A stretch of 64,000 nucleotides of DNA. It comes from Candidatus Bathyarchaeota archaeon (lineage in GTDB: Archaea > Thermoproteota > Bathyarchaeia > 40CM-2-53-6 > DTDX01). The notes under the pieces were generated by a model. It saw only the letters and a list, made by a program, of their open reading frames with translations, was not told the DNA's origin and did not search any database. Every line of letters starts with the position of its first letter. The first letter of the stretch is position 1. The position numbers and the translations under genes were made by a program. Positions 6,936-43,147 of the stretch are shown piece after piece. The stretch covers positions 1 to 64,000 of the forward strand of contig JAGTRF010000011.1 in the NCBI GenBank assembly GCA_018396775.1, written 5' to 3'.

Positions 6936-7790
6936 TCACTTAAAAAGAAATATTTCTTCTTCATATCGTCTTCCTTCAAATAATGAGCCGGGTGAAATTC
7001 TTTCAATTTTTCTTTTAGAAAGAAAATCGGTTAAAAGCTTGTTAGCTTCTTCAAGAGAAATAGATTCATCTTTAAGCCATTTTAAAGGAACGTTAATTTC
7101 CATTGGTCTAGCTGGAATAACATGCCTAGTTACTTTATGCGGGAACACTAAACCTTTTAAACTAAAATTTATTACATCTTCTTTACTTACAGGTGGAACA
7201 GCCATAACCATTTCTATAAAACCTTTTAAAAGCTTGTTTTCCGCATCAAATTCAGTTTCATACTCAACTTTTCCTCCAAATTTAATAAGCGTGCCTTCAA
7301 TCAATTTAACGATTTCATAAGCTTTTTTTAAGCTTCCAAGCCACTTAATTGAAGAGCATTTATTTCGCGTTAAAAAGATGGTTGAAGATTGCTTATTTAA
7401 TAAAGCTTCTTTAGCATCTTTAAAACTTAATTCAATTAAATTAAGGTTAAGCTTTAAAGCTTCGTTTCGAACAACTTCAATTAAGCTTTCATCATTAAAG
7501 GTTCTATACCATACGCCAACCTTTATTAATGGATTAAAGTAATCAAGCAGGCATACAGGCATTCTAATGCAGCCTACTTTTTTAGCTGCTTCAACCCTAT
7601 GCATTCCATCTAAAACCACAAAAGAGCCTTTATCTACAATAACAGGATTTTTAATTACTTCTTTTTCAAGTATTGATGAAGCTATTTCATCTACAAGCGT
7701 TGGAATAGTTTCTTCATGCAAATGAAGCTTATTTATAGGGGCTAAAGAAATTTTTATTTCAAGATTTTTTGAAGCAATTTTAAAATTCAA
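6936..7790 (-). CDS. SerK-like free-serine kinase (ParB/Srx fold)
   Basis: A 284-residue ParB/sulfiredoxin-fold protein resembling Thermococcus SerK, the ADP-dependent L-serine kinase that makes O-phosphoserine for cysteine synthesis. Matching landmarks: HEET with Glu26, VVLDGMHRVEAAKKVG with Asp61 and His64, the LLDYF...VGVWYRTF segment, and a C-terminal VFPHKVTRHVIPARP stretch paralleling the kinase's end. As I recall, the first three correspond to SerK's catalytic Glu30, Asp69 and His72. No parA or chromosome-partition neighbour is present, which argues against a ParB role. It overlaps the upstream helical gene by 4 nt. ADP versus ATP use cannot be told from sequence alone. Confidence 0.75.
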   Translation of the reverse strand: MNFKIASKNLEIKISLAPINKLHLHEETIPTLVDEIASSILEKEVIKNPVIVDKGSFVVLDGMHRVEAAKKVGCIRMPVCLLDYFNPLIKVGVWYRTFNDESLIEVVRNEALKLNLNLIELSFKDAKEALLNKQSSTIFLTRNKCSSIKWLGSLKKAYEIVKLIEGTLIKFGGKVEYETEFDAENKLLKGFIEMVMAVPPVSKEDVINFSLKGLVFPHKVTRHVIPARPMEINVPLKWLKDESISLEEANKLLTDFLSKRKIERISPGSLFEGRRYEEEIFLFK

Positions 7791-8203
7791 TTTTTATCCC
7801 TTTTGCTAAAACTAAATCTTTCTAAAGCTTCTTTAACTATAGTTGAGGAGGCTTCAAGAGTTTTTTCAGCTAAAACCAGAATTTTATCTTTTCCAAGGTT
7901 AAATTGAGGATCAACAGTTTTTTTAACTAAAATGTTTATTTTCTCCATAAGCCTAATGAAAGGCTCTTTTCGCAAAGCATTTTTAACTAAAGCTTCTTCA
8001 ATAGCATATTCTATTACGGTCGGCTCTCCCAAAGCGTATTGAAGAGCTAATTGAGCTTTCCTCATTGAAATTGCAGAAAGCTCTTTCACAAGCTCTATAG
8101 AATCGCATTCTTTAGCTAAAGAAAGATCAGCTTCAGCTTCTCTTAAATACCTTAAAGCCCAGCTTTTCATGAATTCATCTAAAATTGAGAATTCAAAAAC
8201 CAA
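7787..8203 (-). CDS. conserved helical protein, HEPN-like
   Basis: A 138-residue all-helical protein. The central part (RYLREAEADLSLAKE ... SMRKAQLALQYALG) looks like the first half of HEPN/COG2250-type four-helix proteins, but I see no RX4-6H RNase motif. It sits 20 bp after rps17e and overlaps the SerK-like gene by 4 nt, so it is surely co-expressed with them. A binding partner or regulator of the kinase is possible, but nothing in the sequence shows it. The assignment to HEPN is tentative. Confidence 0.5.
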   Translation of the reverse strand: MVFEFSILDEFMKSWALRYLREAEADLSLAKECDSIELVKELSAISMRKAQLALQYALGEPTVIEYAIEEALVKNALRKEPFIRLMEKINILVKKTVDPQFNLGKDKILVLAEKTLEASSTIVKEALERFSFSKRDKN

Positions 8204-8223
8204 TTTAATTTTTTTACTCCTTT

Positions 8224-8451
8224 TTAATCTGGTTCAGGAGCGGTTGTTAAAGCAGCTTTTCTTTTCTCTTCAATTCTCTTTAAATTTGATATATAACCTG
8301 CAATTTTATTTCTTAATTTTTTTCCATAAACATCTATAAGCTGCGCTACAATCTTCTTGTTTTCTTCAAAGCTGGTTGTAAACGCGTTAGGGTTAGCAGC
8401 TAACAATTCTTTAGCAGCTTTTTTAATTACGCGAGTTCTAACTTTCCCCAA
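8224..8451 (-). CDS. rps17e: ribosomal protein S17e
   Basis: A 75-residue basic small-subunit protein with the S17e pattern: MGKVRTRVIKKAAKELL at the start, then SFEENKKIVAQL and KKLRNKIAGYISNLKR. Length and ATG start match archaeal S17e. It is the first gene of a leftward operon (S17e, helical protein, SerK-like kinase, sulfur carrier). The divergent histone gene starts 187 bp away, leaving room for both promoters. Confidence 0.92.
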   Translation of the reverse strand: MGKVRTRVIKKAAKELLAANPNAFTTSFEENKKIVAQLIDVYGKKLRNKIAGYISNLKRIEEKRKAALTTAPEPD

Positions 8452-8637
8452 AACATTACCACCAATAATTTAAATAACTGTTTAAATTCAATATTTCTCT
8501 ATTTTAAATCTTTCTTTTTTGAGTTTATTTATTTTCTTGTTAATTTTGCATGTTTCCATTTAAATTTTAGCTTAAAAGCCTTAAAAACAAGCTTTTAAGC
8601 TTCTTATTATTTTTAAACTAAGAATAGGGCGTTTTCC

Positions 8638-8859
8638 ATGGAGAAAAAAGAAATTTCAACAGCAACTATTCACAGATTAATATTAAAGGGGGGAGCAGCT
8701 AGAGTAGGCGATGACGCTGTTGAAGAATTAAGAAAGATTCTTGAAGATTTAGCGGTTAAAATAGGTAGAGGAGCTTGGGAAATAGCAGTTTATGGTAAAA
8801 GAAAAACTGTTAAAGCTGGGGATGTTCGATTAGCAGCTAGAAGATTTATTAAGGAGTGA
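8638..8859 (+). CDS. archaeal histone
   Basis: A 73-residue single histone fold protein that wraps DNA as dimers or longer multimers. Landmarks: AARVGDDAVEELRKILEDLA (helix 2) and the end GKRKTVKAGDVRLAARRF with the RKT loop and the Asp-Val that cap the fold. A short N-terminal extension (MEKKEIST) precedes helix 1. Histones are missing from most Sulfolobales and related orders, so this narrows the host within the TACK group. It is transcribed alone, divergent from rps17e and ahead of the thermosome gene. Confidence 0.93.
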   Translation: MEKKEISTATIHRLILKGGAARVGDDAVEELRKILEDLAVKIGRGAWEIAVYGKRKTVKAGDVRLAARRFIKE

Positions 8860-8900
8860 AGCGATAAACTTTAAAGGAAGAATTTCAATTTACAAAATTA

Positions 8901-8974
8901 AAGTATAAAAACCACTTAGATAAAACAGATTACGCATTAAAAATATAAGATTTTATATTTAATTTTTGGAGGTG
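8901..8974 (+). promoter_or_regulatory. probable promoter and strong ribosome-binding site of the thermosome gene
   Basis: A TATA-like AAGTATAAAA lies at 8901-8910 in the histone-thermosome gap, and GGAGGTG at 8968-8974 ends 8 nt before the ATG at 8983. The Shine-Dalgarno match is the strongest of those checked and fits a highly translated gene. The TATA call is by position and composition only. Confidence 0.5.
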
Positions 8975-8982
8975 AAAGTTAA

Positions 8983-10611
8983 ATGGCATATCTTGCTGGT
9001 CAACCAATCTTGATACTGAAGGAGGGAACCAGCAGAAGAAAAGGTAAAGACGCTCAAAAAGCAAATATAACTGCTGCTAGAATTGTCGCTGAAAGTGTAA
9101 AAACTACGCTTGGCCCTAGAGGCATGGATAAAATGCTTGTTGACAGCCTTGGAGATGTTACTATTACTAATGATGGGGCTACTATTCTTGATGAGGTTGA
9201 TGTTCAGCATCCAGCAGCTAAAATGATGGTTGAAGTAGCTAAAACACAAGATAATGAAGTAGGCGATGGAACAACAACAGCCGTAGTATTAGCAGGAGAA
9301 CTGCTAAAATATGGAGAAGAACTTTTAAATGAGAATATTCATCCTACGATTATTGTTGGCGGCTATAAGAAAGCTGCTGAAAAAGCTATAGAAGTTCTTA
9401 ATGAAATAGCTGTTCCAATAGATCTTAACGATAGAGAAACTCTTAAGAAAATTGCTTTAACTTCAATGCGCAGCAAAAGCATTGTAGGCGCTGGAGATCA
9501 CTTAGCTGAAATAGCTATAGATGCTGTTAAACAAGTAGCTGAAAAAAGAGGAGAAAGCTACTATGTTGACATAGATAACATTCAATTAATTAAGAAAGAG
9601 GGAAAAAGCATTTTTGACACAGAGTTAATTAAAGGCATAATTATAGATAAAGAAGTTGTTCATCCAGGAATGCCTAAAAGAATTGATAATGCTAAAATAG
9701 CCTTGTTAGATGCCCCATTAGAAATAGAGAAAACTGAGATAAGCGCTGAAATAAGAATTAGAGACCCAACTCAAATGAAAGCTTTTCTAGATGAAGAAAC
9801 AAGAATGATGAAAGCGATGGTTGAGAAAATCGTTAAAACTGGAGCAAATGTTGCACTTTGCCAGAAAGGAATTGACGATATGGCTCAGCATTTCTTAGCT
9901 AAAGAAGGAATAATGGCGGTTAGAAGAATAAAGAAGTCAGATATGGAGAAGCTTGCTAGAGCAACAGGTGGAAAAATTGCTACAAACCTAGATGATCTTA
10001 AATCTTCAGATTTAGGCGAATGCAAGCTAGCTGAAGAAAGAAAAATTGGAGACGACAAAATGGTTTTCATTCAAGGATGCAAAGATCCTAAATCTGTAGC
10101 TATATTGATTAGAGCTGGATTAGAAAGGCTTGTTGATGAAGCTGAAAGATCTTTAACCGACGCTTTATCTGTGATAGCAGATGTTTACGAGAAAAACAAG
10201 ATTGTAGCTGGTGGAGGAGCTGTTGAAGCTGAGGTTGCTAAAAGATTAAGAGACTACGCTGCTAAAGTTGGAGGTAGAGAACAATTAGCTATAGAGGCTT
10301 TCGCTAAATCTTTAGAGGTTATTCCAAAAGCTTTAGCTGAAAACTCAGGGTTAGATTCAATAGATATAATGGTTTCACTTAAAGCAGCTCATGAAAACCC
10401 TGAAGGAAAATGGATGGGCGTTGACGTTTTCACAGGCAAAATAGAAGATATGATGAGTGAAGGCGTGATAGAACCTGTTAAAGTTAAAGAGCAGGCTATT
10501 AAATCAGCTGTTGAAGCTGCATCGATGATTCTTAGAATAGATGATGTTATAGCTGCAGCTAAGCCGCCGCCGACTCCACCGCCAAGAAAAGGCCCTGGTG
10601 AAATGGAGTAA
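8983..10611 (+). CDS. thsA: thermosome subunit (group II chaperonin)
   Basis: A 542-residue ATP-driven protein-folding chaperonin subunit that forms a two-ring cytosolic complex. Landmarks: [16 protein letters not shown], the nucleotide loop NDGATILDE and [15 protein letters not shown], the apical domain between about residues 210 and 370, and the closing equatorial domain with GGGAVE and GLDSIDIMV. The C-terminal tail ends in Pro-rich [16 protein letters not shown] instead of the common Gly-Gly-Met repeats. Only one thermosome gene is in the window, so ring composition is open. A clear hairpin terminator follows. Confidence 0.96.
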
Positions 10612-29707: not shown

Positions 29708-30694
29708 ATGAGCATTCATGTTGCAGTTTATGGTTTAGGCTATATAGGAGCTTTAATTGCTAAAGCTGCTTTAACTAAGAGAAATGTTAAATTGGTTGCT
29801 GGAATAGATGTGGATTTAAGTAAAGTTGGCAAGGATTTAGGAGAAGCTTTAAATTTAAATAGGAAGCTTGGAGTAAAAGTTGCGCATGATGATGAAGCTG
29901 AAAAAATTTTAAGCGAAACTAAACCTCAAATAGTTCTTCATTCAACATTAACTCACTTAAATGAAGTGTACCCTCAATTAATTAAATGCATTAAAGTTAA
30001 AGCTAACGTTATTTCCACAGCTGAGACATTATCTTATCCATGGTATAGGCATCCTAAGCTCGCATCTTTAATAGATGAAGAAGCGAAAAAAACAGGAGTT
30101 TCAATCCTTGGAACAGGCGTTAATCCAGGATTTATTTTTGATTCTCTCCCAGCTTTCTTAACATCTACATGCGTTAAAGTAGATGGAATTCACATAATTA
30201 GATCTATAAATGCTGCTTTGCGAAGATATTCCTTTCAAAAAAAGTATGGGTTAGGCATGAGTGTAGAAGAATTTAAAACTAAAGCGTTAGGTCATACAGG
30301 TTACGCTGAATCAATACTTTTATTAGCTTCAATAATAGGGGTTAATATAGATAAAATTAAAGAAAACCAAGAACCTATATTAGCAAAGGAAAATCTGACG
30401 ACAGAATATTTTAACATAAATCCTGGACAAGTATGCGGTGTAAAAGGTTATGGATTTGGATATGTTAATGGAAAAGAGTTTATTAAGCTTGAGTTGATAG
30501 CAGCTGTAAATCAAAAAGACTTTGATGAAATAATAATTGATGGAGAGCCGCCGCTTAAATGGAGAAATGAATATGGAACTTCAGGCGATATCGCTACAGC
30601 AGCAATGATTGTAAATATGATTCCTAAAGTTTTAAAAGCGCCTAAAGGCTTAATAACAATGAAAGAATTCATCCCATCAATCTCTTTAATTTAA
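29708..30694 (+). CDS. 2,4-diaminopentanoate-dehydrogenase-like NAD(P)-binding protein
   Basis: A 328-residue dihydrodipicolinate-reductase-type oxidoreductase. The N-terminal Rossmann motif is AVYGLGYIG, followed by IDVDLSKVGKDLGE, STAETLSYPW, GTGVNPGFIFDSLP and the end SGDIATAAMIVNMIP ... APKGLITM. This matches 2,4-diaminopentanoate dehydrogenase (Ord) of ornithine fermentation and related amine dehydrogenases. A TATA-like TTTATAT lies about 35 bp upstream. It precedes, by 32 bp, a GSA-aminomutase-like gene on the same strand. The ornithine pathway's other genes (oraSE, ortAB) are not here, so the substrate may differ. Confidence 0.78.
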   Translation: MSIHVAVYGLGYIGALIAKAALTKRNVKLVAGIDVDLSKVGKDLGEALNLNRKLGVKVAHDDEAEKILSETKPQIVLHSTLTHLNEVYPQLIKCIKVKANVISTAETLSYPWYRHPKLASLIDEEAKKTGVSILGTGVNPGFIFDSLPAFLTSTCVKVDGIHIIRSINAALRRYSFQKKYGLGMSVEEFKTKALGHTGYAESILLLASIIGVNIDKIKENQEPILAKENLTTEYFNINPGQVCGVKGYGFGYVNGKEFIKLELIAAVNQKDFDEIIIDGEPPLKWRNEYGTSGDIATAAMIVNMIPKVLKAPKGLITMKEFIPSISLI

Positions 30695-30726
30695 AGAAGC
30701 TTCTAGCTTAAATAGGGTGTAAAAGG

Positions 30727-32028
30727 GTGAAACAGATTATTTTTAATAAACGTTCAAAAGAACTTTTTGAAGAAGCGAAAAAATTTCTTCCAGGTGGAGT
30801 TACTTACGCGATAAGATATTTTGAACCTTACCCGTTTTACGTTGTTAAAGCTAAAGGAAGCAGAATTTGGGATGTTGATGGAAATGAGTATATAGATTTT
30901 TGGATGGGGCATGGAGCTATAGTTACCGGGCATATGCATGAACCTATAATAAATGCTTTAAAAGAGCAGTTAGAATATGGTTTTCATTTCGGCTGGTGTA
31001 ACGAGTGGGAAGTTAAATGGGCTAAAGCTGTTTGCAAATGGTTTTCCACAGACATGGTTAGACCTACTAACAGTGGAACTGAAGCAAACATGTATGCGGT
31101 TAGATTGGCTAGAGCTTATACAGGAAAAGTTAAAGTTGGAAAGTTTGAGGGAGGGTGGCATGGAGGATACGATGGCCTTCACAAATCAGTTAATTACCCA
31201 TATGATAAACCTGCATCCCTCGGGTTAACTGAAGATTCAATAAAAAATATTGTGACCCTTCCATATAACGATTTAGAAGGCGTATATAAAAAGGTGAAGA
31301 GGGAGGAGTTGGCTTGCATAATAGTTGAGCCTGTAATGGGAGCAGGTGGTTTTATACCTGCTGAAAAAGAGTTTTTGAAGGGACTTAAAGAATTATGCGA
31401 GGATAAAGATGCTTTATTGATATTTGATGAGGTAATAACAGGTTTTAGGTTTTTTAAAGGCGCGCAACATTTTTATAATGTAAGGCCAGATTTAACCACT
31501 TTAGGTAAAGCTGTTGGCGGTCAATATTTTCCAGGGGCAGGCGCGTTTTGCGGTAAAGCTGAAGTAATGGAGAAGCTGAATCAAATAAAAAATAAAAATT
31601 TTTGGGAAAGAGTTTTTCATGGCGGAACCTACACTGGAAATGCTTTAACAATGAGAATGGGTTACGAGTTAATAACAGATTTGGAGAATAAAGGAGTTAA
31701 CTTTTATAACAAAATAGATAAATTGGGGGAAGAAATTAGAAGCGGATTAAAAAACATTTTTGAAGAGGGAAGAGTTAAAGCATATGTTACAGGGTTAAAC
31801 TCTTTATTCGCTATTCACTTTACAAACAAAAAACCAATAGATGGTTTAACAGCTGAAATAACAAAGGATAAAGATTTAACAAGAAAATTGTTTGAGTTTA
31901 TGATTAATAATGGGGTTGCTTATCTTACACCTTTAACGCCTCACCTTTTTCTTTCTTCAGCGCATACAAATAAGGATAAAGAAAAATTTTTATCTTTAGT
32001 TGAAGAATTCATCAGTAGAAAAACATAA
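30727..32028 (+). CDS. class III aminotransferase, glutamate-1-semialdehyde aminomutase-like
   Basis: A 433-residue PLP enzyme of fold type I. Landmarks: LPGGVTYAIRYFEPYPFYVVKAKGSRIWDVDGNEYIDFWMGHGA, STDMVRPTNSGTEANMYAVRLARAYTGK, the cofactor Asp in LLIFDEVITGFRF and the Schiff-base Lys in TLGKAVGGQYFPGAGAFCGK, as in HemL. No other tetrapyrrole gene is nearby, and the partner is a diamino-acid-dehydrogenase-like protein. An aminotransferase or aminomutase on an amino-acid catabolic intermediate is therefore at least as likely as haem synthesis. GTG start at 30727. Confidence 0.85.
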   Translation: MKQIIFNKRSKELFEEAKKFLPGGVTYAIRYFEPYPFYVVKAKGSRIWDVDGNEYIDFWMGHGAIVTGHMHEPIINALKEQLEYGFHFGWCNEWEVKWAKAVCKWFSTDMVRPTNSGTEANMYAVRLARAYTGKVKVGKFEGGWHGGYDGLHKSVNYPYDKPASLGLTEDSIKNIVTLPYNDLEGVYKKVKREELACIIVEPVMGAGGFIPAEKEFLKGLKELCEDKDALLIFDEVITGFRFFKGAQHFYNVRPDLTTLGKAVGGQYFPGAGAFCGKAEVMEKLNQIKNKNFWERVFHGGTYTGNALTMRMGYELITDLENKGVNFYNKIDKLGEEIRSGLKNIFEEGRVKAYVTGLNSLFAIHFTNKKPIDGLTAEITKDKDLTRKLFEFMINNGVAYLTPLTPHLFLSSAHTNKDKEKFLSLVEEFISRKT

Positions 32029-32174: not shown

Positions 32175-33059
32175 TTAACCGAGAACTTTTTGTATTAAGG
32201 TTGGATATTTTAATCCTGTTCCAGTTATTACGCAGCAGACTTTATCTTTCTTCTTTAAGTTTAAGTGATTTAGGGCAGCTATAGATACTGCTGCAGCTGG
32301 TTCAACGATTAGCCCTTGTTTAATTAAGTTTATCATAGCTTGTTTTATCTCTTCATCTGAAACTTTAACTATGGTTCCATTACTTTCCTTTATTATTTGA
32401 GTTAATTTTGGTTCCTCTAAATGAGAGAAACCTTTTATACTATGGGCTATTTTTGTTTCAGGCGCTATAGCTGCTACAAGCTTTGCTTTTACATGCTCTT
32501 TTTTAAGCCCCATTCCTACACCAACTAGCAACGTTCCATTATTAGTTGGACATATAACAATTGTTGGTTTTAGTTTTTTAGCTATTTCTCTTCCAATATA
32601 AGAGTTTCCGATTAATTTAGCTTGACAAGAACCTGCATTTGCATTATACACTTTTCTTTTAGCGATAAATTTCATTGAAGCTTTAAAACTATCGATAAAA
32701 CTTCCTTTAATTATATGAAGTTTAGGTTTAAACAATTTAATTAACTTAATTTTTTCTTCAGGTGTATCTGAACCAATAAATATATGTGCTTGAAAACCAA
32801 ATCTATAGGCATAAGCTGAAATTGAAATTGCTGCATTTCCAGTACTGCAACAAGCAAGCTCGTTATATCCCTTCTTTTTCATATCTAAGATTACAGCAGC
32901 ACTTTCTCGATCTTTATGGGTGCCTGTAAAATTAAATAATTCAAGTTTAGCATAAATTGAGCAATTATATTGTTCACTTTCTTGTTTTAACTTTATTAAA
33001 GGAGTATTCCATACCGGTTTTTCATAAAGAAAGTTAAGATTAACCTTTAAATCATTCAT
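32175..33059 (-). CDS. threonine-synthase-like PLP enzyme (fold type II)
   Basis: About 294 residues, shorter than usual threonine synthase because the N-terminal zinc-ribbon or extension is missing. Landmarks: WNTPLIKL, the Schiff-base Lys in FTGTHKDRES, CCSTGNAAISISAYA for cofactor phosphate contact, and the end VITGTGLKYPT. This is closest to threonine synthase/threonine dehydratase-type enzymes. I use the ATG at 33059 over a GTG at 33071. It lies 22 bp after the phosphoesterase gene, as the last member of a five-gene leftward unit. Near a threonine-degradation pair, so synthesis and breakdown are both possible. Confidence 0.75.
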   Translation of the reverse strand: MNDLKVNLNFLYEKPVWNTPLIKLKQESEQYNCSIYAKLELFNFTGTHKDRESAAVILDMKKKGYNELACCSTGNAAISISAYAYRFGFQAHIFIGSDTPEEKIKLIKLFKPKLHIIKGSFIDSFKASMKFIAKRKVYNANAGSCQAKLIGNSYIGREIAKKLKPTIVICPTNNGTLLVGVGMGLKKEHVKAKLVAAIAPETKIAHSIKGFSHLEEPKLTQIIKESNGTIVKVSDEEIKQAMINLIKQGLIVEPAAAVSIAALNHLNLKKKDKVCCVITGTGLKYPTLIQKVLG

Positions 33060-33093
33060 TAAAACTATCACTGAAGAATCTTAAATACTGTAA

Positions 33094-34053
33094 TTATCCA
33101 GATGTGAGTAGAAAATCTTTAATCTTGCCTTTTTCTAAATCAACTATTACTCCACGCAATATACCATCTTGATATTCGCTTCCTGGGTTAATGCATACAG
33201 TTCGACCTATCCTATGTACTCCTTTAGATTCATGTATATGACCGTGAAGGCCTAAAAGAGGTTGATATTTTTCAATTGCAGATCTTACTGCTTTACTTCC
33301 TACAGGTTCCATTTCAGGTCTTCCCGCTGTCACTTTGATTTTAAATTGCTCATCCAACTTTGGCGCTGTATCTAATCCTGAATTATATGGTGGAGCATGA
33401 AAATTGAAAATACAATTTTTTACGTCCTTAACCGAAGAAATCATTTTCTCAATTTTTTCATTTAATTTTTCTTCAGGTATATCTCTGGGACAATTCCATG
33501 GAGTTATATTCGCGTATCCAGTGCTAATCATTTCATATTCATTATTTACTTCTATAACTTTCCCCTCAGGGTTGATTATGTAATTTGATTCTTCTAATAC
33601 CTGATCAATATCTAACCTATCATCGTTACCAGGCATAATGAAGCATTTGATTCCAGTTTCTTTTAGCTTTTCCTCAGCTAATTTCAACCATTCTCTTACG
33701 TTTTCTTTCATTAATTCAGAAAAGAGTTTATCTCTTTTATCTACATTATTTTCTAAATCTTCTTTTTCTTTTGAACTACATAAATAAACATAGTACCCGC
33801 TGTTTCTGATTTCTCCTACAATTTTATTTAACTCTTCTTCTGAGGAGGGGTTAAACATCTTTCCTAAATATTTAATTGTAAAACTACCGTTTTCATGTTT
33901 AACTATTGGGATTATAGCTTTTCCTGTTATATCCCCTCCAAGTAGTAATATGTTTGCTTTATAAAATTTTCCTGCACCAATAAATTTTTTAAAGCATATT
34001 TCTGAACCGTGTATATCGCTTGAAAAAAATATTCTTATTTTCAATAAAATCAC
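33094..34053 (-). CDS. calcineurin-like metallophosphoesterase
   Basis: A 319-residue phosphoesterase. All metal motifs are visible in order: SSDIHGS (D-x-H), LLGGDIT (GD), MPGNDDRL (GND), NFHAPPYNSGLD (H) and LHGHIHESKG (GHxH), then CINPGSEYQDG. The GTG start overlaps the preceding gene by 4 nt. It could act on nucleotides, phospho-metabolites or a phosphoprotein; the 4-nt overlap with a nucleotidyltransferase-fold protein suggests that the two work together. Confidence 0.9.
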   Translation of the reverse strand: MILLKIRIFFSSDIHGSEICFKKFIGAGKFYKANILLLGGDITGKAIIPIVKHENGSFTIKYLGKMFNPSSEEELNKIVGEIRNSGYYVYLCSSKEKEDLENNVDKRDKLFSELMKENVREWLKLAEEKLKETGIKCFIMPGNDDRLDIDQVLEESNYIINPEGKVIEVNNEYEMISTGYANITPWNCPRDIPEEKLNEKIEKMISSVKDVKNCIFNFHAPPYNSGLDTAPKLDEQFKIKVTAGRPEMEPVGSKAVRSAIEKYQPLLGLHGHIHESKGVHRIGRTVCINPGSEYQDGILRGVIVDLEKGKIKDFLLTSG

Positions 34054-34823
34054 CTAATTACTTCTTCTACTTCCTGATACCAGATTTTTTTCGTACCTAT
34101 TCTAGCCCTCATTTTCCATTTTAAAGTTTTAGGATGCTCTTCAATAACTTTAAGCATTTTATCTAAATTTTGTTTTACATGATCCTTATATGATGTTGAC
34201 ATGATGTTAAACGTGCTTTCTTCCATATATTTTTTTATTTTATCAATATTAAGAGTAACTGTATAATAGAAGCCCCAATCGTCAGATAATAGTTTAGCTA
34301 TATGGTTAATATTTATAGCATCATGGTCATTATCTCCAATTTCATGTTCCATTAATAAAATTATCAAATCTTTTACATCCTTTATTGTAAGTTTAACTAT
34401 CTGCATTTTAGTTAAGAATAATTCTGCAAGTGGAAGCGTAGGATAATCTATTTCTAAACGCTCTTTGAAATCGATTTCATGACACATTGAAAGTTTATCT
34501 AGGAATACGTCTACTAATCGATTGTTTTCTTCATCAAAAAAGAATCTTCTAAATTTTAATGCATCCCCCATCATAACGCTTAAGTAGCGTTTTTGCGTAT
34601 ATCCTAATTCTTCAAAAATCTTTACAATTTCTTTAGAATGTTTTGCATAAGCAGCGAAGTCTATATCGGTTAATTCTCTGCCTAAAGATTTATGAAGCTC
34701 CACGTATTTAGGGCAATGAATCCTAATGGCGGTAGCTCCAAGAACCCTTATAGGTATTCCTTTTTCTTTTCCGTACTCAATTACTCTTAAGACTTCTTTA
34801 ATATGATCTGAAAGAGGCTTCAT
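34050..34823 (-). CDS. nucleotidyltransferase-fold protein (AbiEii/DUF1814-like)
   Basis: A 257-residue protein with the pattern of the nucleotidyltransferase fold: IRVLGATAIRIHCP, then RELTDIDFAAYAKHSKEI with an acidic D-x-D-like pair (TDIDF), and a third strand RLVDVFLDKLSMCHEIDF. The first motif has GATA instead of GGxA/GS. AbiEii-type toxins share these features, but this gene lies inside a metabolic operon with no antitoxin partner, so a metabolic or modification role is more likely. It follows the C45 gene by 7 bp. Confidence 0.6.
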   Translation of the reverse strand: MKPLSDHIKEVLRVIEYGKEKGIPIRVLGATAIRIHCPKYVELHKSLGRELTDIDFAAYAKHSKEIVKIFEELGYTQKRYLSVMMGDALKFRRFFFDEENNRLVDVFLDKLSMCHEIDFKERLEIDYPTLPLAELFLTKMQIVKLTIKDVKDLIILLMEHEIGDNDHDAININHIAKLLSDDWGFYYTVTLNIDKIKKYMEESTFNIMSTSYKDHVKQNLDKMLKVIEEHPKTLKWKMRARIGTKKIWYQEVEEVIR

Positions 34824-34830
34824 TTTATTA

Positions 34831-36195
34831 TTACCTCCATTTAATGGAAAATAATGTCCATGGATATGGTATAATATCTTCTAAATAATTTTCTTGCCAT
34901 TTAAATTCGCTGTGCTGTTTAAGAAATTCTTTTGCTTTAAACGGTATTTCGCAAGCTGGCCCCCAATGCGCCCACATAGAACCTTTGATTGCTAACTCGC
35001 TTGCTGTAACTTTAGCATCAACCGCTCCAAAAGGTTCAAATGGATTACATCTCCACTCTAGGAAACCTCTTGGATCAAATTCAACATGACCGCAAATTGA
35101 GCATGCAGAAGGGTTTTCTTTATTTTGAGTTATATCAAAGTGATCGGAAATAATCTTTTTAGCAGCATCCACATTTAATCTACCTTGATATTCTTCCATT
35201 AATTGCTTTAATCTATAATATCTTGCTAGAGGAGATTTATTAAGGTTAGTATAATCGAATGTTGTTTCTTGACGCACTTCATTATTAATAGCTATATTTG
35301 ATCCTATAAAATATCCATTAATTTTTCGTTCAGTTGCCCATTTAAATGCTCCAAGTTCAAGCCAACCAATTTCATTAGTTTTTACATCTCCAATTAAATA
35401 ATCATTTGCCCATCCGCCGTTATTTTTCGTTATCATAATATTAATCCATTCATCAATAGAATCTGAGTATTGAAGCGCTTTTCTACATCTTACAAAGTAT
35501 GGTGTACCTTCAGGATTAAATTTTGTTGCTCCAGTTATTGTAGTTTCTGCAATAATAAGCCCAGCATCGTTAATATCCCAATCTATAGTAGAGCCGCCAA
35601 TTGCTCCAGGCCAAGTTTGAAAAAGCATTTTATGACCTTTTTCAGGAGTAATATCCATGATTACATTATAACCAACGCCTATAATGTATGAAAACCAAGT
35701 GTTATGAGCTAAAATAATTTTCCCATCTTCAGTAGCATTTCCGGTAGCAATAAAGGCGCTGCAATGAGGTTCTCTTCGCTTATTTTTATTTTGCTCATTT
35801 CCTTTACATTCTTTTGAAGTATGATATGATAAAACATCACCATATCCATTAATAAATAAAATATCATTTAATGTTATATAATTAAATCCACGGCTGTTCA
35901 ATCCAGTTAAAATCCCATGAATTTCTTCTTTATATTCATCAGGAGTTTTATCCCAGCATATTTTTTCAGCAGTAGTTAAGAAGTAACTCCATGGTTTTTC
36001 ATAAATTTTCTCAACATAAAGCCTTGTTCTCTTGATGTTAGATGCAATTTCGTTAGCTAACCAATATCCATGCTGAAAACCTACTTGAAATGGTGAACCG
36101 CAAAGGTGAATTTTAATCCATCCATTAACATCTAAACGATGTGAATTCATAAGTAAATGTTGAATCTCTTTGTCGCCTAGTAGATTTGGTTTCAT
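34831..36195 (-). CDS. C45-type Ntn-hydrolase (acyltransferase/amidase, phospholipase B-like)
   Basis: A 454-residue protein. GSPFQVGFQHGYWLANEI near the start and the segment HCSAFIATGNATEDGKIILAHNTWF near residue 140 match the C45 acyl-CoA:6-APA acyltransferase / phospholipase-B-like families. The Cys in HCSAF is expected to become the N-terminal nucleophile after self-cleavage. Later landmarks are GGSTIDWDINDAGLIIAETTI and NDYLIGDVKTNEIGWLE. No signal peptide is obvious, so it is probably cytosolic. In family members the reaction is transfer or hydrolysis of an N-acyl group. Next to an amino acid permease and a PLP enzyme, an N-acyl amino acid or peptide substrate is plausible. Confidence 0.75.
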   Translation of the reverse strand: MKPNLLGDKEIQHLLMNSHRLDVNGWIKIHLCGSPFQVGFQHGYWLANEIASNIKRTRLYVEKIYEKPWSYFLTTAEKICWDKTPDEYKEEIHGILTGLNSRGFNYITLNDILFINGYGDVLSYHTSKECKGNEQNKNKRREPHCSAFIATGNATEDGKIILAHNTWFSYIIGVGYNVIMDITPEKGHKMLFQTWPGAIGGSTIDWDINDAGLIIAETTITGATKFNPEGTPYFVRCRKALQYSDSIDEWINIMITKNNGGWANDYLIGDVKTNEIGWLELGAFKWATERKINGYFIGSNIAINNEVRQETTFDYTNLNKSPLARYYRLKQLMEEYQGRLNVDAAKKIISDHFDITQNKENPSACSICGHVEFDPRGFLEWRCNPFEPFGAVDAKVTASELAIKGSMWAHWGPACEIPFKAKEFLKQHSEFKWQENYLEDIIPYPWTLFSIKWR

Positions 36196-36263
36196 TTTAC
36201 ATTTACCTTTAAATCTTCAATAATTAATAAAATAGTTAAAAAAAATAAGAGGTTTAAAGTATA

Positions 36264-37892
36264 TTATTCAGGAGGAATGCTTGCATGTGCAAGTTCTACT
36301 GGAATGCCCTTTGTTTTATGATATAGATAGGATATATAGTATATTACTGGGGCAATCACGAAAGTTATGATTGTGGTTCCGATGTAAAGCAAATCTATAG
36401 CGCCATAAATTGCAGGGTTAATTGAAGCAGCAGCAATATAAATTGAAATTGGTATTGAAATTGCGGAAATAATGCTTACCACTGGTATACCAGCGATTTT
36501 AGATTTTGCAATACTAGGTGCAGCTTCAAATATGTCTTTTCTTTTCCAAGGATATATTATTCCTGCGATAGCTACTATTATCATGCCGATCCACCAAGCT
36601 AGAATTGAGTAAAGGAACCATTTTAGTGCAGTTGTGTATATGTACAACACGTTCATAATAAAGGATATTATCCAAGTCACTAATATTGCCATGTATGGAG
36701 AGTGACGACGTTCATCAACTGCTGATAGTTTTGCTGGTAAAATTCTATCAAAAGACCAAGCGAATATGTTTCGTACACTAGATAAGAATAATCCCATGGC
36801 CGCTCCAAAAGCTCCAAAAGCAAAGGTTATGCAGAAGAGGGGGGGTAAGTATGGATTACTAGTAGCAAACATTGAAAGAATGCTTCCTAATGGTTCGATT
36901 GGAAATATATCCCAATAATATGAATGGCCATTAATATCGAGGTATGCTAAGCTGTTAATGAATACAGCACCTAGAGTTTTATCGTATAACATATACAATC
37001 CAAAGGCTGTAAAGCCAAAAAGGAATAAAGCACCAAGAATGGAGATTATTTGGGATTTAACGACTCCCTTAACCTCACCAGCAATATATGCGGAGTTTGT
37101 GTACCCCAAGAAGTTTAGAGTGGTATATGTCGTTGCGAAGCCAGTAACTCCAAGACCCACCGGTAATGCTGCAGCAACATCCCATCCCTCACTTTTAGCG
37201 GTATTAATTACCCCCTCAAAGGTAAACTTTCCATCGGTAAGCAGCGCCATTCTATCAGCGAATACTCCTGCTCCATTTAACATAACTGCTGCCCAAATTG
37301 CTAAACCAATATACCCTATAACGATAGATACCCATTCAGATCTAAATTCCCATTTAGAACCGAGATATGATAGAACCCCCATTATGATTAAAATAATGGT
37401 GCTGATGAGAAATTTGGGGTTTGGAGATAGTATAAAGTTGCTTATGTCGATGTATGCGGAGTTTCCAGTCATCATTCCATATGTATAAAATATTGGTGCT
37501 ATTCCCCATTCAGTAATCCATGAAGCGAATGGCCCAGCCCAGCTTAACAATATTAGTGTGATATACCAATTTACTGTAAAGCCTAATGCAGGGTGCAGTA
37601 TTCGGCTGACCCACACATAATCTCCTCCTGATCGAGGCATAGTAACGGAAAGAAGCACGTACATTAAACCGTTTGGAATCATCATCAATATAGCAAGTAG
37701 CGCTGAAAGAGGCATATAAACGCCAGGTCCGAATAAACCTACAGCCCACATTTGATATACCCATGGCCAATATATACCTGGAATTAAAATGCACATCACC
37801 AACGCGTCCCAAGCGCTTATTGTTCTGGCCAACCCTGAAGCTTTTCTTACGAAAATTTCACCAGGTGTCATTTTACAGTACTCCTTTAACAT
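36264..37892 (-). CDS. APC-superfamily amino acid permease
   Basis: A 542-residue transporter with about 12-14 membrane segments. The start (ASGLARTISAWDALVMCILIPG) and the MPRSGGDYVWVSRILHP motif in segment 2-3 are the APC signature. It has no C-terminal UspA domain, unlike the permease at 3.8 kb. It is the first gene of a leftward unit (permease, C45 hydrolase, nucleotidyltransferase-fold, phosphoesterase, PLP enzyme). The gap to the next gene is 68 bp. The 255 bp upstream separate it from the divergent HTH regulator, its likely controller. Substrate: amino acid or derivative, not further defined. Confidence 0.88.
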   Translation of the reverse strand: MLKEYCKMTPGEIFVRKASGLARTISAWDALVMCILIPGIYWPWVYQMWAVGLFGPGVYMPLSALLAILMMIPNGLMYVLLSVTMPRSGGDYVWVSRILHPALGFTVNWYITLILLSWAGPFASWITEWGIAPIFYTYGMMTGNSAYIDISNFILSPNPKFLISTIILIIMGVLSYLGSKWEFRSEWVSIVIGYIGLAIWAAVMLNGAGVFADRMALLTDGKFTFEGVINTAKSEGWDVAAALPVGLGVTGFATTYTTLNFLGYTNSAYIAGEVKGVVKSQIISILGALFLFGFTAFGLYMLYDKTLGAVFINSLAYLDINGHSYYWDIFPIEPLGSILSMFATSNPYLPPLFCITFAFGAFGAAMGLFLSSVRNIFAWSFDRILPAKLSAVDERRHSPYMAILVTWIISFIMNVLYIYTTALKWFLYSILAWWIGMIIVAIAGIIYPWKRKDIFEAAPSIAKSKIAGIPVVSIISAISIPISIYIAAASINPAIYGAIDLLYIGTTIITFVIAPVIYYISYLYHKTKGIPVELAHASIPPE

Positions 37893-38798: not shown

Positions 38799-39566
38799 TT
38801 ATTGTGCGGTGAACCCTCCATCTATGGGGATAGCGGCTCCCGTTATATAAGAAGAATCATCAGATGCTAGGAATAATACAAGTTTAGCTATTTCTTCAGG
38901 CGTTGCCATACGCCCTATTGGTTGAAGCTGAGCCATTTTAACTCTCTGTTCTTCCATCTTATGCGGATCGCCTTCTCCCCAGAGTTCAATTTCTTTTTCC
39001 ACCATTTCAGTAAAAACATTTGCAGGGCATATACAGTTGACTCTAATATTTTTTGTAGCATATTCAAGAGCAACAGACTTTGTAAATGTAACGATAGCCC
39101 CTTTCGTAGCGCAGTAAGCTGAATAATAGGGGGTTCCAGTTAATCCATATATAGATGATGTATTTATAATGCTTCCCCCGCCACTCTTCAACATTTCAGG
39201 AATTGCAAACTTAGTAACTAGAAATACCCCCTTCAAATTTATATCAATAATTTCATTCCAATCTTTCTCTTCCATTTCTGCAACGCTTCCCACCTTTACT
39301 ATTCCTGCATTATTAAATAGAATATCTAATTTACCATATTTTTCAACTGTTAAATAAACCATTTTTTTAGCATCAGATTCTTTAGAAACATCACCTTGAA
39401 TATAAATGACTTCACCACTTATTTTTTTCATAGCTTTTTCTCCTCTCTCTCGATCCCTTCCTACAATTGCTACTTTAGCTCCTTCCTTTGTAAATAATGA
39501 TGCAGTAGCAAAACCTATTCCTGATGTGCCCCCAGTAATTAAAGCAACTTTATTTTTCAATTTCAT
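38799..39566 (-). CDS. short-chain dehydrogenase/reductase
   Basis: A 255-residue classical SDR. Landmarks: TGGTSGIGFATA (cofactor loop), NNAGIV, the catalytic Ser in INTSSIYG and Y-x3-K in YSAYCATKGA, and IPIDGGF near the end. The Arg in VGRDRERGE after strand 2 favours NADP(H). It resembles the FabG group, but substrate cannot be deduced. It is in the same direction as the alcohol dehydrogenase, TDH and KBL genes upstream, with gaps of 87 bp and more, so they may be one loose transcription unit. Confidence 0.88.
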   Translation of the reverse strand: MKLKNKVALITGGTSGIGFATASLFTKEGAKVAIVGRDRERGEKAMKKISGEVIYIQGDVSKESDAKKMVYLTVEKYGKLDILFNNAGIVKVGSVAEMEEKDWNEIIDINLKGVFLVTKFAIPEMLKSGGGSIINTSSIYGLTGTPYYSAYCATKGAIVTFTKSVALEYATKNIRVNCICPANVFTEMVEKEIELWGEGDPHKMEEQRVKMAQLQPIGRMATPEEIAKLVLFLASDDSSYITGAAIPIDGGFTAQ

Positions 39567-39653
39567 TTTTTACCCTCTTTTCAACAAGTTTCTAGAGAGT
39601 ATCCAATATAAAGATGCTTAAATTACGCGTTTTACTATTTAGCTGCAACTATT

Positions 39654-40688
39654 TTATGGTTCCAGTACAATTCTAACAGGATTTCCTATTCTCTCGTTAA
39701 GAATTTGAACAGCTTTATTCACATCTTTTAGTGGTAACTTGTGACTTACAACGTTCGATAAGTTAAACTGTCCATTTTCAATAAATTTGATTACCTGCGG
39801 AATTTCAGATTTAAGATGGTCTTGAGGACTCATTAACTTAATTTCACGAGTCATTACTTCATCTACGAAAGAGATGGGAACATTATCAAAGCACATACCT
39901 ACTATAACGGCTTTCCCTCCTTTTCTAACACAAGCGATTACATTTTTGATTGTATCAACTAATCCAATTACTTCAAAGCCAACATCAACACCGCCATCCG
40001 TTATATTAAGAACTTGTTTAACTGGATCTTCTTCTTTTGGATTAATTGTAGCTGTAGCCCCCATTTCTCTAGCCAGCTTTAGTTTTGCATTTTCAATATC
40101 TACAGCTATTATTTCTGTAGCTCCAAAGATTTTAGCCCATTGCACGACATTAATTCCCACTCCTCCAAGCCCATAGACAAGAACCATATCACCTGCAGAG
40201 ACTTGAGCAAGTTTCATAGCATGATATGACGTCATTGCAGCGCAGTTCATAATAGCGCCTTCCGGAAAGCCGATATTACGTGGAAGCTTATGAACATGAC
40301 GTTGGGGAACAACAATTTTCTCTGTCCAAGCTCCATCAAAATTCACAGCCATAACTTTAAAGTTATCGCATAAATTATCCTTGCCGACTGAACAATATTT
40401 ACATGTACCGCAACTAAGTACGTAATCTGCTCCAACACGATCACCAAGCTCAACCTTCTTTACATTCTTACCTTTTTCAGCTACGACGCCTGAGAGTTCA
40501 TGACCTAAAGTTATTGGAGGAGGTTTTGCAGGAGGAAATACACCATTAATGGTATGTAAATCAGAGTGACAAACGCCAGCAGCTTTTATCTCTATTAATA
40601 CATCATCATCTCCTAATTCTGGAAGCGATACTTCTTCAAGCCTTAGGGGTTTATGCGGCTCATAAAAACGGGCTGCTAATACTTTCAT
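39654..40688 (-). CDS. zinc-dependent alcohol dehydrogenase (MDR family)
   Basis: About 344 residues. Catalytic-zinc ligands are in GVCHSDLH and TLGHE. The structural zinc cluster has all four cysteines (SCGTCKYCSVGKDNLC), and the Rossmann motif is VYGLGGVGINVVQ with IAVDIENAKL (Asp, so NAD is favoured). The start is the ATG at 40688; a start at 40700 would add four residues. It could oxidise an alcohol or an amino acid: MDR threonine dehydrogenases share this fold. Since an SDR-type threonine dehydrogenase lies next door, I leave the substrate open. Confidence 0.88.
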   Translation of the reverse strand: MKVLAARFYEPHKPLRLEEVSLPELGDDDVLIEIKAAGVCHSDLHTINGVFPPAKPPPITLGHELSGVVAEKGKNVKKVELGDRVGADYVLSCGTCKYCSVGKDNLCDNFKVMAVNFDGAWTEKIVVPQRHVHKLPRNIGFPEGAIMNCAAMTSYHAMKLAQVSAGDMVLVYGLGGVGINVVQWAKIFGATEIIAVDIENAKLKLAREMGATATINPKEEDPVKQVLNITDGGVDVGFEVIGLVDTIKNVIACVRKGGKAVIVGMCFDNVPISFVDEVMTREIKLMSPQDHLKSEIPQVIKFIENGQFNLSNVVSHKLPLKDVNKAVQILNERIGNPVRIVLEP

Positions 40689-40963
40689 AAAAATCACCAT
40701 CTTTAGTAACTTAGATCAGGGCATCCCCCTTAAAAGTTTTTCGATTGTATTATTAAAAACTTAAAAAAATTAAAAAAATATGAATAAGTTAGTATAAGAC
40801 TAAAGAAAAACTGATTGAAAACTAAAAGAATTAAAAAATGAGTAATGAATAACGGTAAGTTAAATTATGGGAAACTTTTTTAATTTTGTAAAAAAAGGTA
40901 TTCTGAGGCGTATAATTTGAGAATAATATTATCATCTCTTATTTTTACATATTGATGGAAATT

Positions 40964-41917
40964 TTAATCATAAAATTTCTTTTGCTTCAACTTTTTAATC
41001 ATATCCTCTACAACTTTATTAAGCTCGTTAAATTCAGGTTTCCAATTCCATTCTTCTCTGGCGATAGAGTCGTCTAAAGATTTAGGCCAAGAATCTGCTA
41101 TAATTTGCCTATAATCTGGTTTATATTCACATGAAAAAGTAGGAATAAACTTTTTAATAGCTTCTTCTAATTCGCCTGCAGAAAAACTCATAGCATTTAC
41201 GTTAAAAACCCTATGTTTTAACTTCGAATCCTCTACCTTTGACAAATCTATTAACGCTTTAATAGCATCTGGCATATACATAATAGGTAGAATTGTATCT
41301 TTTCGTACGAAGCAAATGTAATTTTTTCCTTCTATAGCTGCATAAAACATTTCAACAGAGTAATCGGTTGTGCCTCCTCCAGGTTTGGTTTCACTACTAA
41401 TTATTCCAGGAAATCTTACGCATCGAAAATCAACACCGTATTTTTTGAAATAATAATTTCCTAATAATTCTTCACAAACTTTAGTAATTCCATACATAGT
41501 TTCTGGAGACATAACTGTGTCATTAGGCGTATTAAATTTAGGAGCATCTTGACCAAACACCGCTATAGAGCTCGCTGCCATAAGCTTTAATTTATATTTT
41601 CTTGCAACTTCAAGAATATTATAAAAACCATTCATGTTAATTTCATAACATAATTGAGGGTTTTGTTCGCCAACAGCTGATAAAACTGAAGCTAAATGAT
41701 ATATTGTTTCAACATCATTATCCATAACTATCTTAGCTAACTGTTCTTTATCCATAATATTTAAATAATAAAATGGACCGGAATTACGCAACTCTTTAGT
41801 TGGTTTTGTAACATGTCCTGTCGCTATAACTGCATTTTTTCCATATAAATTTCTAAGCGCTGGAACCAATTCGCTTCCAATTTGGCCGCAAGCACCAGTT
41901 ACAAGTATATTACCCAT
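40964..41917 (-). CDS. tdh: L-threonine 3-dehydrogenase, SDR (epimerase-like) type
   Basis: A 317-residue extended SDR that oxidises threonine to 2-amino-3-ketobutyrate. It matches this TDH type rather than sugar epimerases: GACGQIGSELVPALR, IYHLASVLSAVGEQNP, AASSIAVFG, PETMYGITKVCEELL (Y-x3-K), FRCVRFPGIIS followed by GGGTTDYSVEMFYAA, and LPIMYMPDAIKAL. KBL, which uses the unstable product, is encoded 24 bp upstream on the same strand, so the two form a functional pair. Cytosolic, NAD-dependent. Confidence 0.9.
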   Translation of the reverse strand: MGNILVTGACGQIGSELVPALRNLYGKNAVIATGHVTKPTKELRNSGPFYYLNIMDKEQLAKIVMDNDVETIYHLASVLSAVGEQNPQLCYEINMNGFYNILEVARKYKLKLMAASSIAVFGQDAPKFNTPNDTVMSPETMYGITKVCEELLGNYYFKKYGVDFRCVRFPGIISSETKPGGGTTDYSVEMFYAAIEGKNYICFVRKDTILPIMYMPDAIKALIDLSKVEDSKLKHRVFNVNAMSFSAGELEEAIKKFIPTFSCEYKPDYRQIIADSWPKSLDDSIAREEWNWKPEFNELNKVVEDMIKKLKQKKFYD

Positions 41918-41941
41918 TTAAAGCTTGCTCCATTAAAGTTT

Positions 41942-43147
41942 TTATTTAATTATTCCAAGTTTTTTACCGCATTTCTCTAATACTTCAATAGCTTTATCCA
42001 ATTGCTCTTTAGTATGCTCACTACATAATTGAATTCTTACCCTGGCTTTACCTTTAGCTACCATAGGATAAAATATTGGTAAAACGAATATACCTTCCTC
42101 CCAAAGTAATCTAGCGAATTCTTTAGCTTTCTCGCTTTCTCCACAAATTATTGGAATAATTGGTGTTTCAGTATTGCCTGTATCAAACCCTAAATCTTTT
42201 ACAGCTTTTAAAAAGTATTCTCTATTCCTCCAAAGCCTTTTAACTCTTTCAGGTTCATTTTCTAAAACATCTATGGCAGCTATACAAGCCGCTGCTACCC
42301 CTGGAGGAAGGGCGCCGGATAACAAGAAGGTGCGAGCTTTATTATAAAGGAAGGCACGAATTTCGTTGCTTCCACATGAAATATGACCGCCAACTACTCC
42401 AAAAGCTTTACTGAAAGTCCCCATTTCTAAATGAATCTCATCTCGACCAAGACCAAAATGGTTTACAATTCCTCTTCCATTTTCGCCTAGTACACCTTCT
42501 CCATGAGCATCATCAACATAAACGCCAGCGCCATATTCTTTAGCTATCTTAGCGATTTCAGGTAAAGGTGCGATATCACCATCCATGCTAAAGACACCGT
42601 CTGTTAAAATCCATATATGGTTATATGAAGGTTTATGGTTTTCAACTTCCTCTAAAACTCTAGCTAAATCATTTATGTCTTTATGTTTATATACTACACG
42701 ATCTGCATGACTTAATCTAACACCATCAATTATGCTACCGTGATTAAGCTCATCTGAAACATAAAGATCACCTTTACCGCAAAGCTGTGGAATAACACCT
42801 TCATTAACCATGTAACCTGTTTGAAAAGTTAATGATGCAGGCGCATCCTTAAATTTAGCTATTCGCTTATCTAATTCTTCATGTAAGCTCATATTGCCTG
42901 AAATTGATCTATCGCTTCCAGCTCCAGCGCCATACTTTTTAGTTGCACTTATCATAGCGTCTACAACTTTAGGATGAGTTGATAAATTTAAATAATTGTT
43001 AGCGCAAAGCATAAGAACTTTTTTTCCATTCACTTTACATATAGGTTGACTTGCGGTTTGAAGTTCTTTAAGCTCCCAATTTAATTGCTCCTTAACTAAA
43101 CGATTATATTCCTCCACCATATATTGCGTTGGATGTCTTTTAATCAT
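41942..43147 (-). CDS. kbl: 2-amino-3-ketobutyrate CoA ligase (glycine C-acetyltransferase)
   Basis: A 401-residue PLP enzyme of the alpha-oxoamine synthase family, cleaving 2-amino-3-ketobutyrate with CoA to glycine and acetyl-CoA. Landmarks: LMLCANNYLNLSTHPKVV, SGNMSLHEELDKRIA, TGYMVNEGVIPQL, VDDAHGEGVLGENGRGI and the Schiff-base Lys in GTFSKAFGVVGGHIS. Length and ATG start agree with KBL. Pairing with the SDR-type TDH immediately downstream separates it from the related BioF and ALAS enzymes. Confidence 0.92.
   Translation of the reverse strand: MIKRHPTQYMVEEYNRLVKEQLNWELKELQTASQPICKVNGKKVLMLCANNYLNLSTHPKVVDAMISATKKYGAGAGSDRSISGNMSLHEELDKRIAKFKDAPASLTFQTGYMVNEGVIPQLCGKGDLYVSDELNHGSIIDGVRLSHADRVVYKHKDINDLARVLEEVENHKPSYNHIWILTDGVFSMDGDIAPLPEIAKIAKEYGAGVYVDDAHGEGVLGENGRGIVNHFGLGRDEIHLEMGTFSKAFGVVGGHISCGSNEIRAFLYNKARTFLLSGALPPGVAAACIAAIDVLENEPERVKRLWRNREYFLKAVKDLGFDTGNTETPIIPIICGESEKAKEFARLLWEEGIFVLPIFYPMVAKGKARVRIQLCSEHTKEQLDKAIEVLEKCGKKLGIIK

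Follow-up and report, generated by a model that had tools for sequence, protein, structure and literature searches.

A 64,000-nucleotide stretch of the genome of a Candidatus Bathyarchaeota archaeon (the window) carries a five-gene operon in which an APC-superfamily permease is accompanied by a minimal polymerase β (pol-β)-type nucleotidyltransferase (NTase) and a calcineurin-like metallophosphoesterase (MPE). These three genes form the conserved unit and almost certainly constitute a functional module; the remaining two, encoding a C45-type hydrolase and a pyridoxal phosphate (PLP) enzyme of the PALP family, are local cargo. In the explanation favored here, to which a probability of about 0.4 is assigned, the NTase would modify a tail of the permease and the MPE would reverse the modification, switching uptake.

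The evidence for the module comes from a sample of 398 Thermoproteota genomes, in which genes within 5 kb of one another were counted as linked. An MPE is linked to 65 of 106 NTase genes, in 22 of the 24 NTase-bearing families, and both an MPE and a permease lie within this distance at 53 of the 75 sampled NTase loci. Exceptions to the NTase–MPE linkage are confined to the Sulfolobaceae-like families f41 and f70, most of f43, and ten genes of f34, several of which sit just past the 5-kb cut. Counted by genome, the NTase is present in 92, the MPE in 93, and both in 91. The genome with the NTase alone (G225) has just a fragment, and one of the two MPE-only genomes (G282, the other being G375) has close relatives in which a divergent 358-aa NTase adjoins the MPE. 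The permease subfamily, defined by matches with E up to 1e-60, occurs in 95 genomes, 91 of them with the MPE, and all three genes coexist in 89. The hypergeometric value for co-occurrence is 1e-86, uncorrected for phylogeny. The host itself has three complete triads, in the window, near 69–73 kb of G000:C6, and near 39–43 kb of G000:C2, as well as a permease–MPE locus devoid of NTase (L185). Close relatives of the MPE were found on two plasmids, a third giving a weak partial match, and the search made of viral contigs returned no relative. The Halobellus limi plasmid carries an iron alcohol dehydrogenase, an aldehyde dehydrogenase, an MPE (45% identity), an NTase (34%, annotated as hypothetical), and an APC permease (27%); the Thermomicrobium roseum plasmid carries a permease, an MPE (42%), and a nitrilase-related gene, and is free of the module NTase.

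The operon and its cargo genes

The operon occupies positions 32175–37892 of the minus strand and is transcribed in the order permease, C45, NTase, MPE, PALP, with intergenic gaps of 68, 7, −4, and 22 bp. A previous sequence-only reading of this DNA had described five leftward genes with gaps of −4 to 68 bp; every open reading frame was recovered where that reading had placed it, and the gene identities it gave proved essentially right in profile searches and, for the NTase fold, through an AlphaFold model and its Protein Data Bank (PDB) matches. The features are the following:

36264..37892, minus strand: APC-superfamily permease (AA_permease_2), the operon's first gene; 542 aa; PF13520 at 72.9 bits; subfamily tied to MPE/NTase
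37824..37853, minus strand: permease N-terminal motif FVRKASGLAR, residues 14–23, matching the motif of linked permeases
36267..36278, minus strand: permease C-terminal IPPE tail, residues 539–542, conserved across 51 triads
34050..34823, minus strand: minimal pol-β-type NTase; 257 aa; invariant residues, AlphaFold model, Foldseek matches
33094..34053, minus strand: calcineurin-like MPE; 319 aa; PF00149, conserved residues, AlphaFold model, Foldseek matches
34831..36195, minus strand: C45/phospholipase B (PLB)-type N-terminal nucleophile (Ntn) hydrolase precursor, cargo enzyme; 454 aa; above the NF040521 cut-off
32175..33071, minus strand: fold-type II PLP enzyme of the threonine synthase/dehydratase kind, cargo; 298 aa; PF00291
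37941..37960, minus strand: B recognition element (BRE)/TATA-like promoter element, ACCGAAAGCTTTATAAATAA, read from the sequence by its resemblance to the consensus only

The five genes are a real operon, and their grouping is not due to chance, since more than 20 families show the NTase, MPE, and permease in company. Some 50–70 nt upstream of the permease as annotated is a TATA/BRE-like element, CCGAAAGCTTTATAAAT; the true start of that gene may be an internal ATG near 37871, preceded by a Shine–Dalgarno sequence of its own, AAGGAG.

Both cargo enzymes score above curated cut-offs. The C45 gene clears the cut-offs of C45_proenzyme NF040521 (135.6 vs. 85 bits) and Phospholip_B (58.1 vs. 27 bits), and the AAT profile PF03417 fails to detect it. 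Its nucleophile is probably an autoprocessing Cys145, which sits in an HCSAFIATG context in both C45 paralogues. The second of these, 48% identical, is the single close relative found; it resides in the same genome (G000:C6:88400, locus L058), near a permease ending in EIPAE, and L058 is the one other place where a C45 gene stands beside a permease of the module subfamily. PALP scores 183 bits against a PF00291 cut-off of 35, with Lys53 as the probable PLP-binding residue, and is not a threonine synthase equivalog: the best such match reaches 123 of the 266 bits needed, and all these equivalogs stay far under their cut-offs. In the sister genome, locus L061 has a 63% orthologue of PALP next to the MPE and NTase. 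Immediately after it come orthologues of window genes 40964 and 41942, read as a short-chain dehydrogenase/reductase (SDR) and a BioF/Kbl acyltransferase; this neighborhood would point to a link with threonine or glycine. Because C45 recurs only at L058 and PALP in the sister genome, both look like substrate-specific additions. The sequence-only reading staked its proposal on homologous genes clustering in other genomes. The NTase, MPE, and permease do cluster in many, but C45 and PALP recur only locally.

At other loci the module is joined by an FmdA/AmdA amidase, an MTTB (MttB-type) methyltransferase, MtrH, or a class IV aminotransferase with an FGGY kinase; further neighbors include an iron alcohol dehydrogenase, a luciferase-like monooxygenase, and an enolase-superfamily enzyme. 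The sequence-only reading had placed the NTase and MPE one after the other in a single pathway, an adenylylation or phosphorylation of the imported compound followed by its dephosphorylation. This linear pathway is not supported, given the recurrence of the NTase and MPE with unrelated cargo, the same pair joining permeases beside the amidase, the MttB-type methyltransferase, the aminotransferase and FGGY kinase, and the iron alcohol dehydrogenase. It is a special case of a broader explanation, taken up below, in which the pair handles whatever substrate is imported.

Two groups of genes flank the operon in the window. At 29708–32028, convergent to it, a 2,4-diaminopentanoate dehydrogenase-like gene lies beside a class III aminotransferase gene resembling glutamate-1-semialdehyde aminomutase; both score under equivalog cut-offs, and the pair possibly serves diamino acid catabolism. 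Upstream at 38799–43147, on the operon's strand, are genes for an SDR, a zinc alcohol/threonine dehydrogenase-like enzyme, an epimerase-fold dehydrogenase, and a BioF/Kbl acyltransferase, possibly a threonine degradation set.

The NTase and MPE families

The NTase belongs to no curated family. Across 32 sequences, D53 and D55 of the DxD motif, D105, and K148, D149, and D152 of a KDxxD motif are invariant, so that the protein displays the DxD and third carboxylate, on an NTase fold, by which pol-β NTases are recognized. No NTase profile in the curated libraries reached its cut-off with the window protein (NTP_transf_5 PF14907, 17.4 bits vs. a gathering score of 31.2), and sequence searches of the PDB yielded spurious matches only. 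The fold is instead apparent from an AlphaFold model with a predicted local distance difference test (pLDDT) score of 92.6, whose best PDB matches in Foldseek are ANT(2'')-Ia, LnuA, and MenT1. The last of these raises the possibility that the NTase is a stress enzyme of the MenT/AbiEii type, modifying tRNA and regulating growth upon failure of uptake, and 3 of the 32 members also match AbiEii weakly. These matches fall under the AbiEii cut-off, however, no cognate antitoxin gene recurs, many Sulfolobaceae keep a stable single NTase copy, and the gene is co-inherited with the MPE and permease, all of which make such a role highly improbable. A toxin–antitoxin pair as such was rejected: no antitoxin recurs, and the recurrent neighbors are the MPE and permease.

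Within the order, the NTase is multi-copy, with several loci in the host (one of them decayed), five in the sister genome, and six in G007. The decayed copy (G000:C7:79266-79883; L060 ~4767-5384) contains several stop codons, has neither MPE nor permease adjoining it, and represents a dying copy of the module. Variants of the gene set were also encountered. In family f47 (L186, L187, L188), an operon-like arrangement comprises an MTTB methyltransferase, a permease, an MPE, and a divergent NTase of 355–358 aa; the full set is present in L186 and L187, the divergent NTase taking the place of the usual one. Four loci (L072, L075, L080, L081) have both the usual and a divergent NTase, plus a 301–304 aa protein with apparent membrane segments that has no match in a Pfam scan and is seemingly split into two adjoining genes in L077 and its relatives. 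A distinct 207–262 aa protein, likewise with apparent membrane segments and without a Pfam match (L068 member scanned), recurs near the module at L065, L068, L076, L141, L142, L148, and L151; it is a possible fourth partner.

The MPE exceeds the Metallophos PF00149 cut-off (29.8 vs. 21.5 bits) and reaches no NCBIfam cut-off. Among 31 sequences, D13xH15, N143D144, H219, and H270xH272 are invariant and D41 nearly so, and the metal-binding set of calcineurin-like MPEs (DxH, GD, GNxD, H, and GHxH) is complete. Its AlphaFold model (pLDDT 95) matches aq_1956 (E 2e-13), TT1561 (E 1e-9), MPPED2, and Rv0805, and also the Ap4A hydrolase SapH. At one locus (L228 in G342, 7766–9961) there are two MPE genes in tandem, with a motif-bearing permease nearby in the opposite orientation.

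Permease tails, partner matching, and a candidate switch

The window permease lies well above the AA_permease_2 cut-off of Pfam (72.9 vs. 27 bits), and its subfamily is marked by two short terminal motifs. Immediately ahead of the first membrane helix the permeases share F-x-R-x-[AST]-[ST]-G-L-x-R, and at the extreme C-terminus they share -IPPE; in the APC family both termini are expected to be cytosolic. Over 51 triads, R16, G20, L21, R23, P540, and P541 rank among the most conserved positions of the permease, P540 being invariant and P541 kept in 47. The residue ahead of G-L (position 19, Ser19 in the window) is always a hydroxyl residue: serine in 42 and threonine in 21 of 63 matched motifs.

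The N-terminal motif follows the presence of the other two genes. In a 16-genome sample it occurs in 63 of 66 linked permeases and in 0 of 17 truly unlinked ones; two further rows scored as unlinked were actually linked, having been cut off by contig or locus ends. The permease subfamily occurs without MPE and NTase in four genomes (L220–L223), and all four permeases are without the motif, as is an unlinked paralogue in G187 (L219). In the permease tree these five motif-less sequences fall at two separate places inside the motif-bearing group, which implies at least two apparent losses, and the tree requires three label changes for the motif, a number as low as which was reached in 0 of 500 shuffles. 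A strict tie of the motif to an adjacent MPE was ruled out by the Sulfolobaceae, where unlinked permeases bear the motif and the NTase and MPE are found elsewhere in the same genomes, one main NTase coexisting with several MPEs and several motif-bearing permeases in trans. The association thus holds at the level of the genome and not strictly by adjacency.

A motif of this kind, RRASGLVR-like in appearance, resembles the sites of basophilic kinases, and one may ask whether a separate kinase phosphorylates the tail and the MPE acts as its phosphatase, leaving the NTase some other role such as sensing or modifying the MPE. Protein phosphatases do occur among members of the MPE superfamily, and the Thermomicrobium plasmid has the MPE–permease pair without the module NTase. 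No kinase gene was recognized, however, among the recurrent neighbors that were clustered and scanned, and the near-perfect co-occurrence of NTase and MPE would go unexplained; a phospho-switch is accordingly quite improbable.

A second line of evidence is which partner matches which. Mantel correlations mix in species phylogeny, and a within-genome shuffle test was used in their stead, with comparisons made across genomes and restricted to those with several triads. In 247 of 383 comparisons the nearest MPE and the nearest permease came from a single triad, vs. 170 in shuffles, none of 301 of which reached the observed value. The NTase, by contrast, agreed with its partners at the level of chance (124 vs. 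148 and 136 vs. 145 in shuffles for its two pairings). The MPE thus appears fitted to its own permease and the NTase exchangeable, the pattern to be expected where a writer acts on a shared motif and an eraser is specific to its own permease. Mean identities over the 51 triads are 26% for the permease, 41% for the NTase, and 44% for the MPE.

Two other explanations can be held against these results. If the pair handled substrate, the NTase would nucleotidylate and so trap the import, and the MPE would release the compound or its phosphate ahead of the cargo reactions. The nearest folds, ANT(2'')-Ia and LnuA, do act on small molecules, and an MPE tuned to the imported compound would match its permease. 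An NTase in a pathway should itself track the substrate, though, and this one does not track the permease and is the more conserved of the two, even though the cargo implies chemically different imports; the tail motifs and their loss are also left unexplained. Substrate handling is therefore improbable. Somewhat unlikely, too, is a nucleotide signal, in which the NTase would make a small messenger from the import or from nucleoside triphosphates, the MPE would destroy it, and its sensor would be the tails of the permease or a different protein. In its favor are the phosphodiesterases MPPED2 and Rv0805, together with the Ap4A hydrolase SapH, among the fold neighbors of the MPE, the weak appearance of a cyclic dinucleotide synthase among those of the NTase, and the interchangeability of NTases, which a shared messenger would fit. 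Yet a diffusible messenger would require neither MPEs matched to individual permeases nor, within one genome, multiple adjacent NTase copies, one for each locus, and no receptor gene recurs.

Nucleotidylylation of the permease tail is favored because the data fit a writer of a motif common to the permeases together with an eraser fitted to each. The permease would import an amino-acid-like compound, and the NTase would transfer a nucleoside monophosphate onto one of its cytosolic tails, the leading candidate for the acceptor being the position of the N-terminal R-x-[AST]-[ST]-G-L-x-R that always bears a hydroxyl. Removal of the nucleotide would fall to the MPE fitted to that permease, and the two enzymes would form a reversible switch setting uptake. 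In the window, C45 would deacylate the import and PALP would process the freed amino acid. The activities, protein target, acceptor residue, effect on transport, and substrates are all predictions of this scheme.

Several observations weigh against tail nucleotidylylation. We know of no activity for either the NTase or the MPE family. Among single-domain NTases, those nearest in fold act on small molecules (ANT, LnuA) or tRNA (MenT) and not on proteins, and the MPE is as similar to nucleotide phosphodiesterases as to a protein-directed enzyme. An MPE working on the imported substrate would also be expected to match its permease. Motif loss amounts to about two events, and one of the permeases without the motif (L221) forms a long branch and lies close to the beginning of a contig. 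Instead of accepting a nucleotide, the motif could serve in docking or trafficking, and the Thermomicrobium permease retains it alongside an MPE on a plasmid without the module NTase, the chromosome having been outside the search.

Relation to known systems

The individual parts belong to known superfamilies, but a system composed of a transporter, a dedicated NTase, and a dedicated phosphoesterase matches no kind known to us. The sequence-only reading had judged the combination unlike any described pathway, and no account of the arrangement was found in the literature searched, most subscription journals lying outside that search. To our knowledge, post-translational control of amino-acid uptake in archaea is largely unknown, and the recurrence of the triad beside different metabolic enzymes suggests an undescribed control of archaeal uptake. 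With a three-gene module in more than 20 Thermoproteota families, a candidate modification site, and tractable hosts, such control becomes testable. The module also gives context to two protein families found unnamed in curated libraries, and is a marker for locating uptake-and-catabolism cassettes of uncultured archaea.

Each component has relatives from which it departs. The NTase resembles ANT(2'')-Ia and LnuA (E 4e-4 and 7e-4), the nearest PDB folds and likewise small single-domain NTases, but at 10–15% identity and a TM-score of 0.41–0.43 on the query; unlike them it has long conserved C-terminal helices, and it occurs with a permease and MPE and not as a resistance gene. With MenT1/AbiEii it shares the fold (E 9e-4) and the KDxxD motif, but it is without an antitoxin partner and is kept across families alongside transport genes. 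The nearest MPE structures, aq_1956 (2yvt) and TT1561, were deposited as hypothetical proteins, and the module MPE is longer. The window C45, with its CSAF nucleophile motif and NF040521 score, is akin to C45/PLB-like Ntn-hydrolases, from which it differs in sharing an operon with an APC permease.

The closest functional parallel is the GlnD/GlnE cycle, in which pol-β NTases reversibly nucleotidylylate PII and glutamine synthetase, and PII gates AmtB. Common to both, on the module side as proposed, is reversible nucleotidylylation by pol-β NTases that controls the uptake or assimilation of nutrients. In its widest form, which is tentative, the proposal would describe an ancient archaeal system in which NTase and MPE reversibly nucleotidylylate the N-terminal tail of a whole APC subfamily, and would be the first direct covalent nucleotide gating of a transporter. 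In GlnD/GlnE, however, a soluble protein is modified, and removal is the work of a fused or second domain. The module would instead combine a single-domain NTase of 257 aa as writer with a separate calcineurin-like phosphoesterase as eraser, the genes of both lying next to that of the transporter.

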